A DNA stretch of 47,030 bases from Sulfurimonas sp. (GTDB lineage Bacteria > Campylobacterota > Campylobacteria > Campylobacterales > Sulfurimonadaceae), in the NCBI GenBank assembly GCA_027448805.1, contig DAIDMU010000017.1:1-47030 (forward strand), given 5' to 3'. The notes beneath the pieces are model-generated. The model made no database searches. It was given only the letters and a program-made list of their open reading frames with translations, and was not told the origin of the DNA. This document shows, one piece after another, positions 3,441 through 5,407 of the stretch. How positions within the stretch are numbered: position 1 is the stretch's first letter; every line of letters begins with the position of its first letter. The translations under genes and the position numbers were made by a program.

Positions 3441-3914
3441 TTATCTCTTGCCGATAACCGGCATTGAGTTCACTTTTTGAGTGTGAGACTCCTCTTCGTC
3501 TGAAACATGGGTGCTGTTATAGACTGCCATTTTGTCAACATACTCCTGCAAAGTAAAGTTTCTATCTTCCTCAGCATACTTCTCTTTAACCTCTTTTTGT
3601 TTCTTTACTTCCTCTTTGGTCATCTCTTTTAGAAGTGTGCCTGTTTTGGCCTCGACAAGTTTTGCGGTACCGTTTTCGTTTTCAATGATTTTTACCGCAG
3701 TATCTCCTGTTGGCGGTTTTGTACCGGCGACAATTGGTGACCACTCTTCACTTAGCCACTTGTCTAGTTTTTGCTGCATAAAGCCACTCTGTTCTTTTTC
3801 TTTTTTACCAGAAACACTGTTTAACGCTTTGTTTTGAGAAGGATTTGCTCCATCCACCTTGCTGCAAGATGTTAAAACTATTATTGCTGATATTGCGAGT
3901 ATTATATTTTTCAT
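3441..3914 (-). CDS. Small charged lipoprotein of unknown function
   Basis: I do not recognise a family. The protein begins MKNIILAISAIIVLTSC, a lipoprotein signal peptide with a lipobox (LTSC, Cys17), so it should be lipid-anchored. The ORF track starts 10 codons upstream at 3944, but the signal peptide places the start at the internal ATG. The mature part is hydrophilic, with a lysine/glutamate-rich middle (MTKEEVKKQKEVKEKYAEED) likely to be helical. It ends in PVIGKR and has no catalytic signature. It stands alone on the minus strand between fabI and the porin. Confidence 0.75.
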   Translation of the reverse strand: MKNIILAISAIIVLTSCSKVDGANPSQNKALNSVSGKKEKEQSGFMQQKLDKWLSEEWSPIVAGTKPPTGDTAVKIIENENGTAKLVEAKTGTLLKEMTKEEVKKQKEVKEKYAEEDRNFTLQEYVDKMAVYNSTHVSDEEESHTQKVNSMPVIGKR

Positions 3915-3971: not shown

Positions 3972-3998
3972 AAGTTAATATTAATTTAAAGATAGATA

Positions 3999-4042
3999 TG
4001 ACATTATGTTGACAATATATTGACATTATGTTGACAATATGT
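3999..4042 (+). repeat. Four tandem 11-bp repeats (TGACAWTATRT) upstream of the porin
   Basis: Four contiguous units read TGACATTATGT, TGACAATATAT, TGACATTATGT and TGACAATATGT. Units 1 and 3 are identical, and units 2 and 4 differ by one base. The 11-bp period is about one helical turn, so each unit presents the same DNA face. The array ends 30 bases before the porin start. It could be a multimeric regulator site or a variable-length leader; no function is known to me. Confidence 0.9.
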
Positions 4043-4072
4043 GAGCAACTTTTTAAATTTGGGAGAATTAAA

Positions 4073-5407
4073 ATGAGATTAACAAAATTAAGTTTAATAG
4101 CAGCAATGCTAATAGGTTCAACTGCATTCGCAATTGAAAATACGAAAGTTTCTGGTGACGTAAAACTATTTTACGGAACAATGGATAGTGATGTTGGTAC
4201 TTATAAAAGTGTTCTTGGTGGAACTAAGCCATCATTTTTTGATGCTGAAGGTGCATATGGAAATGCAGCAGCAAATCTTGAATTAACTACTGATTTAACC
4301 AAAGGTGTATCTGCTGGTGTAAAAGGTACTTATATAACTACTTTAGGGCTAGAGAATAATCTAGTAGATAATACTTGGTCAAATGCTCACACAATATCGC
4401 CTGCTACTGGTGCTAGTTTTGCTAGTGAGCTTGGTGGTAAACAGCTTGATGATGCGTTCTTTATGGGAGAGCTATGGGTGGCAGGTTCTGCATTTGACAC
4501 TACTATAAAAGTTGGTCGTCAAGCGGTTGATACTCCTTTAGCATTTACTGAGACTTGGGGAATCGATCAAAATACTTTCGAAGGTGCTGTTTTAATCAAT
4601 CAAAGTATTCCTGATACTACATTGGTTGCTACATACCTTGGTAAGCATAACGGTTCAAGCTGGGATCCAAAAAGCACTGATCTTCCACTTGCTCCTGGAA
4701 CATTAAATGATATTAATTTAGGTGGTGTTCAAGGTGGTGCAGCACAGGCTGGAATCACTTCTCAAAATGGTGCATTTAACACTTTTGGAACAAACGGTGT
4801 TTATGTTGCAGGTCTTGTAAATAACACAATTAAACCTTTAACTGTTCAAGCTTGGTACTATAGTCTACAACAACTTGCAGATGCAACATGGTTTCAAGCA
4901 GACTTAAATGTTGGCGGTATCTTAGCTGGTGCTCAATACACTTCAGTTGATGTAAATAATGCAACAGATAAAGATGAAGCATTTGCTGTTATGTTGGGTT
5001 ATGAAGCTAAAGATGTTGTTACTATTAAAGTTGCATACTCTGATGTAGATGATAAAGGTGCTCTAGGTGGTGTTGCAAACGTTGCTACAACTACAGGTCA
5101 ATCTAAGTTATATACTGAAATGTGGTGGGCATACGGCAATGTATCTGATACTGGTGCAGAGTCTTTCTCGTTAACTGCTGAGGCAACTGTTGCGGGAATT
5201 GGCTTACTTGCTGGTTACTATGTAGCTGATATTAACCCAACTCCAGCTGTTGATACTGAAGTAACTGAGATTGCTTTTGTTGCTTCAAAATCTTTTGGTC
5301 CGTTAGATACTTCTGTAGCAATCATTCTTGATAATGAAGAAGATAATGTTGCTAATACAGACAATGATACAAACCACTTACAAGTATATTTAACATATAA
5401 CTTCTAA
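4073..5407 (+). CDS. Outer-membrane porin (Campylobacterota Opr/OprD-like family)
   Basis: Predicted beta-barrel channel. Starting at the internal ATG, which has a GGGAG ribosome binding site, it begins MRLTKLSLIAAMLIGSTAFA, a signal peptide cleaved near residue 20. The 15 extra codons in the track are not needed. The mature protein has alternating amphipathic strands, many Gly/Thr/Asp residues and almost no Cys. It ends in the aromatic outer-membrane signature YLTYNF. At 444 residues it fits a monomeric or trimeric porin. VKVGRQAVDTPLAF-type segments are typical of porins in this phylum. The substrate cannot be inferred. Confidence 0.85.
   Translation: MRLTKLSLIAAMLIGSTAFAIENTKVSGDVKLFYGTMDSDVGTYKSVLGGTKPSFFDAEGAYGNAAANLELTTDLTKGVSAGVKGTYITTLGLENNLVDNTWSNAHTISPATGASFASELGGKQLDDAFFMGELWVAGSAFDTTIKVGRQAVDTPLAFTETWGIDQNTFEGAVLINQSIPDTTLVATYLGKHNGSSWDPKSTDLPLAPGTLNDINLGGVQGGAAQAGITSQNGAFNTFGTNGVYVAGLVNNTIKPLTVQAWYYSLQQLADATWFQADLNVGGILAGAQYTSVDVNNATDKDEAFAVMLGYEAKDVVTIKVAYSDVDDKGALGGVANVATTTGQSKLYTEMWWAYGNVSDTGAESFSLTAEATVAGIGLLAGYYVADINPTPAVDTEVTEIAFVASKSFGPLDTSVAIILDNEEDNVANTDNDTNHLQVYLTYNF

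Follow-up and report, generated by a model that had tools for sequence, protein, structure and literature searches.

What might be achieved by an 11-bp sequence repeated four times, without spacing, immediately ahead of a porin gene in Sulfurimonas? The array occupies 3999–4042 on the forward strand of the window, by which we mean the whole 47,030-nucleotide stretch of DNA analysed here. It comprises four abutting units, TGACATTATGT TGACAATATAT TGACATTATGT TGACAATATGT, all of which match TGACAWTATRT without mismatch. Two unit types, A and B, alternate along it, and 30 bases separate its end at 4042 from the porin start codon at 4073. The preliminary description of the locus had claimed exactly this arrangement, which is confirmed in every particular and lies far beyond chance. 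TRF reports the array as 11 bp x 4.0, and also as 22 bp x 1.9 at 100% match, and it is the highest-scoring TRF array in the window. Its self-match at a lag of 11 is 28 out of 33, compared with 22 at the best other place in the window; this value is not attained by shuffling, whether of dinucleotides within the intergenic region (2000 shuffles, best 24) or of the whole window (60 shuffles, best 22). Single TGACAWTATRT units are not enriched, with 73 matches at up to two mismatches against 62 ± 8 expected, so that it is the tandem arrangement only which calls for explanation. We consider it most likely, with a probability of roughly 60%, that the array is a tandem operator of the OmpR/PhoB type, lying over the -10 element, the transcription start and the leader, and that it represses the porin.

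The gene downstream (4073–5407, forward strand) encodes a porin-like outer-membrane protein of 444 residues. It has no Pfam match and only weak, sub-cutoff matches to 'Opr family porin' models in NCBIfam (E 3e-7 and 3e-6), and a paralog in the related genome G021 matches Pfam Porin_4 and OprD. A Shine-Dalgarno sequence, GGGAG, is present at 4061–4065 on the same strand and is kept in the orthologs. An in-frame ATG at 4028, inside the array, would, if used, lengthen the porin by 15 residues (MLTICEQLFKFGRIK); the start at 4073 is favoured on account of the conserved Shine-Dalgarno sequence and signal peptide. Divergently oriented on the reverse strand (3441–3914) is a small lipoprotein-like gene (start MKNIILAISAIIVLTSC) without a Pfam match. 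Named relatives with an orthologous porin are in most cases metagenome-assembled genomes of Sulfurimonas; the isolate Kmv11 comes nearest, with 90% porin identity.

Comparison of these relatives reveals which parts of the array are retained. With one mismatch allowed in the later cores, 19 of the 22 orthologous porin promoters of the window's clade have two or more TGACA units, all strictly in the 11-bp register. Two units occur in eleven genomes, four in the window genome, G070, G005 and G083, and five in G133, G134, G144 and G147. Most of the array has been lost from the other three, one unit being retained in G052 and G064 and none in G006, which counts against an operator. Across units 2–4 of 18 distinct arrays, conservation is 99.6% in the TGACA core and 78% in the spacer; in unit 3, for example, TGACA is constant across species whilst the spacer begins TTAT, AACT, GCAA or TTTT. 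The outer boundaries of the array are fixed: unit 1 lies at a near-constant distance downstream of a conserved TTAAA(G) block, and the last unit is 15–18 nt from the ATG in most species. The distance of 30 nt in the window genome and in G083 is explained by decay of a fifth unit, which the promoter alignment places at 4043–4054 on the forward strand (GAGCAACTTTTT, corresponding to TGGCAATTTTT or TAACAATTTTT in G133/G144).

The number of units thus varies between species, from two to four to five, and judged from these promoters the array is evolutionarily labile in unit number; the preliminary description had proposed that slippage might change this number and so tune porin expression. Two-unit species have the order A-B and four-unit species A-B-A-B, indicating that the alternation arises from duplication of a 22-bp pair of half-sites. 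Since this duplication is common to several species it is old rather than the product of fresh slippage, and the step in unit number looks like duplication of an ancient 22-bp module. Tuning of porin expression by unit number is plausible between species. The 11-bp steps in copy number could also be expected of neutral tandem duplication, and helical repeats might simply form intrinsically bent DNA. Either explanation is very improbable, however, since the spacers diverge while the cores stay conserved, the half-site pair recurs before unrelated genes, and the array is devoid of A-tracts; it contains no run of four or more A or T, which speaks against bending of that kind. The earlier proposal that phasing on one face of the helix reflects either cooperative binding of a regulator or bent DNA can therefore be divided. 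The former has good support, from the 11-bp register that the TGACA cores keep in different species and from the recurrence of the box before other genes; the latter finds none.

Two observations bear on the history of the gene and its promoter. The porins of G021 and G144 (L004 and L076) are near-identical proteins, yet their promoters have two and five units, respectively. Conversely, G083 (L086) combines a promoter and signal peptide of the window type with a porin of only 48% identity. Gene and promoter therefore differ in history, the mature porin having apparently been exchanged under a conserved promoter.

Porin control by tandem boxes for response regulator dimers, as proposed for the array, is familiar from the OmpR F and C boxes of E. 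coli ompF and ompC. Those boxes have a different core, and the main ones lie upstream of -35 and activate, with an additional distant repressing site. Direct repeats in an 11-bp register are a well-established mark of sites of the OmpR/PhoB type (PHO box, PMC4415409; HP1043, PMC5253667; RR2/PceP, PMC7755780). The half-sites of such operators measure 5–7 bp. The PHO box, bound by PhoB/PhoP in many bacteria, consists of tandem 11-nt direct repeat units with several per promoter (PMC4415409), and the array is built in the same way. Moreover, the E. coli PHO unit CTGTCAT is close to the reverse-strand unit of the array, TTGTCAA/ATGTCAT. This likeness informs on geometry and possibly on recognition, though not on phosphate. 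The PHO box lies at -35 whereas the array at the porin probably lies on -10/+1, and the genes that carry the box, among them the porin, the cbb3 oxidase and yceI, include no phosphate genes. Closer to Sulfurimonas, the HP1043/HsrA (CosR) sites of Campylobacterota (PMC5253667, PMC8345958) resemble the array in having two half-sites 11 bp apart for an OmpR-type protein, but the half-site is TTTAAG, located at -35 and activating, where the array has TGACA. The OmpR-type regulator PceP/RR2 of Sulfurospirillum, in the same phylum, recognises three repeats with 6-nt gaps at pceAB, giving the same 11-bp register (PMC7755780); these sites differ in their core, CTATW, in overlapping -35 and in serving halogen respiration genes. 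Taken together, the four TGACA cores at 11 bp centre to centre in a conserved register, the stronger constraint on cores than on spacers, and the sharing of the box by a set of promoters suggest that the array is a putative operator of an OmpR/PhoB-type response regulator. The operator type is known; the half-site, target set and regulator are undescribed as far as our literature searches reached, and these returned no account of TGACA boxes in this group or of Sulfurimonas porin promoters.

The evidence for a wider set of targets comes from genome-wide pattern searches. A three-unit pattern with one mismatch gave many matches in the genus, but many in the reversed control as well, and isolated one-mismatch matches were discarded for this reason. 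Exact TGACA-N6-TGACA occurs at 60 sites in seven genomes, of which 19 are the porin arrays. The 41 non-porin sites are only mildly above the average for other spacings (about 30). Their placement is more distinctive: 17 of 33 inspected N6 sites are intergenic, compared with 3 of 40 at other spacings in a control from one genome (Fisher p = 4e-5), and intergenic N6 boxes, reading TGACA or TGTCA, recur at the same genes across genomes. Upstream of ccoN, which belongs to the cbb3 oxidase, the sequence runs TGTCA-N6-TGTCA-N3-TTTAAG-N5-TTAAAC-ATTTATACT at a nearly fixed position. The box is present at 22 of the 30 best-matching genus loci (11 exact, 11 with one mismatch); of the remainder, some have TGTTA-like repeats and one is truncated. 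At yceI the box comes immediately after TATACT or TATAAT in 11 of 18 cases, three of them read by eye where the automatic choice of start codon fell on an ATG within the box, and at ccoG it directly follows the -10 element in 7 of 26. It also lies upstream of a 7TMR-DISM hybrid kinase in three genomes, the window's included; a TolC-like gene and a TonB-receptor gene each have it in two genomes. Across this set of genes the box occurs on either strand.

Related arrangements were seen elsewhere in the genus. The ccoN promoters (L178–L207 and L339–L346) form a genus-wide composite in which the box adjoins an HsrA/CosR-like TTTAAG-N5-TTAAAC and TATACT. Several two-unit species (L005, L006, L071 and L072) carry a TGACA/TAACA pair at 11 bp on the opposite strand, near the -10 element of the divergent lipoprotein-like gene, so that both genes may be under the regulator in those species. 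Contig C50 of G021 (L174, 358–3466 and 3526–3555) has an array of three TGACA half-sites between the porin paralog and a divergent operon for cytochromes (DHC, cytochrome b561 and DUF1924), a small metal-resistance-like periplasmic protein and a CpxR-like response regulator.

How the array might act depends on the position of the porin promoter. TTGACA as a sigma-70 -35 element was discounted because no -10 element lies 17 bp downstream of any copy. More distant porin orthologs (about 45–53% identity) lack the array, and many have a clear promoter in which a box such as TTTAAG-CAAAT-TTCAAG is followed by TGnTATACT. This box agrees with the experimentally defined HP1043/HsrA consensus, TTTAAG-N5-TTTAAG, which substitutes for the -35 element and lies just above a -10 element, the latter often with an extended TG (PMC5253667, PMC8345958). 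Alignment, the published consensus and the presence of an ortholog of the regulator point to a degenerate HsrA/CosR-like box in the window, GTTAAT-ATTAA-TTTAAA, at 3974–3990 on the forward strand. Below it, the TGA-CATTAT of unit 1 falls within one or two bases of the position of TGn-TATACT in the distant orthologs. Besides TGACA, A8 and T9 of unit 1 are invariant, as expected for a -10 element, and an extended -10 (TG-A-CATTAT) is therefore placed at 3999–4007, forward strand, an assignment we regard as probable. Transcription of the porin would then start near 4013–4016, and units 2–4 (4010–4042, forward strand) are predicted to cover +1 and the 5' leader. Downstream of the array there is no room for a promoter, since in nearly every species the last unit abuts the Shine-Dalgarno region. 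An array spanning -10, +1 and leader occupies the position of a repressor site; the box likewise comes immediately after the -10 element before yceI and ccoG.

The sign of regulation at the porin is uncertain, as the same box lies upstream of -10 at ccoN and the TolC-like gene, where it could activate. It is accordingly conceivable that a regulator on the array recruits polymerase to a start within or beyond it, so that the porin is switched on. The candidate -10 element in unit 1, CATTAT, is weak, as in activator-dependent promoters, and a second -10-like sequence, TATATT, lies at 4016–4021. We nevertheless think activation unlikely. The 15–18 nt left between array and ATG in most species are too short for a -10 element, a start and a Shine-Dalgarno sequence, TATATT is missing from several two-unit species, and at yceI and ccoG the box comes after the -10 element. 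A further alternative is that the array acts in the transcript, where UGACA repeats in the leader would bind an RNA-binding protein or alter translation. Units 2–4 are indeed predicted to be transcribed and to end beside the Shine-Dalgarno sequence, but the leader has no predicted structure, folding no better than its shuffles (z = 0.2), and the occurrence of the box on either strand at various genes, as well as upstream of -10 elements, argues for recognition of DNA rather than RNA. We give an action in the transcript very little weight.

Under repression by an OmpR/PhoB-type protein, each TGACA (TGTCA on the other strand) would constitute one half-site, and one dimer would occupy two half-sites 11 bp apart. 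The window promoter would accordingly have two dimer boxes, A-B-A-B over 4 x 11 bp, with a decayed fifth half-site. As the half-sites lie on nearly the same face of the DNA, bound dimers could contact one another, and binding may be cooperative. Transcription would proceed from the HsrA/CosR-like box and the extended -10 in unit 1, occupation of units 1–4 would block RNA polymerase, and promoters with more boxes would be repressed more tightly.

Which protein might bind? The genome has 12 genes with an OmpR-type DNA-binding domain, 11 of them above the curated cut-off. One encodes a close ortholog of HP1043/CosR (PDB 2hqr, E 4e-86; 8uvx, E 4e-109), and this protein might itself bind the array besides its own upstream box: it is OmpR-type with half-sites spaced by 11 bp, and its boxes adjoin the TGTCA box at ccoN. 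It is nonetheless a most improbable occupant. Its half-site TTTAAG is unlike TGACA/TGTCA, and only the neighbouring block at 3974–3990, not the array, resembles TTTAAG-N5-TTTAAG. HsrA/CosR is known from Helicobacter and Campylobacter, yet the composite of TGTCA box and TTAAG in the ccoN spacing was found only within the genus: nine of 32 sampled genus genomes have it (judged by coordinates, near ccoN in eight and at yceI in one), and 365 genomes of other genera gave no case. Autoregulation provides no pointer to the regulator, as none of the genome's own OmpR-type regulator genes has an intergenic box; only the 7TMR hybrid kinase carries one. Next to the G021 array, the CpxR-like two-component system may sit in its own target locus. 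As a general regulator it was dismissed, there being no direct ortholog in the window genome, where the closest protein, L101, is 41% identical.

L101, which we take to be RacR-like, is itself the best candidate, though as such a guess, because presence throughout the genus does not single it out and the box was found at no regulator gene. Of 135 genus genomes, 129 encode it, with 90–99% identity in most; its recognition region is almost invariant in the loci inspected, and in several relatives it lies about 9–17 kb from the porin. RacR of C. jejuni is described as acting at low oxygen levels, with alternative electron acceptors (PMC4456614), a role that would suit a target set of ccoN, ccoG and porin. 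A RacR-like protein of about 90–99% identity through the genus could thus be the regulator of a TGTCA-N6-TGTCA regulon. More tentatively, and with less confidence than we attach to the operator, such a regulon may be specific to Sulfurimonas and tie the porin to ccoN/ccoG, yceI and envelope transporters, with the strength of porin control evolving by duplication of 22-bp dimer boxes in steps of two helical turns. The array offers a concrete cis-code for gene control in an environmentally important genus, and the ccoN promoter, with its box beside an HsrA/CosR-like box, a handle on a possible link between oxygen respiration and envelope permeability.

Two minor observations were made during the searches. 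Contig C3 of G131 (L057, 1440–1530) has a longer TTGACA/TTTACA array in 11-bp register with one inverted copy; its neighbours, read from open reading frames, are relaxase-, antirepressor- and ParA-like, so these are perhaps plasmid iterons unrelated to the porin. The yceI neighbourhood is present twice in the window's own genome, on the separate short contigs G000:C92 and G000:C104 (L033 and L034); the two copies are 92% identical, so that either the assembly mixes strains or the region was duplicated recently.
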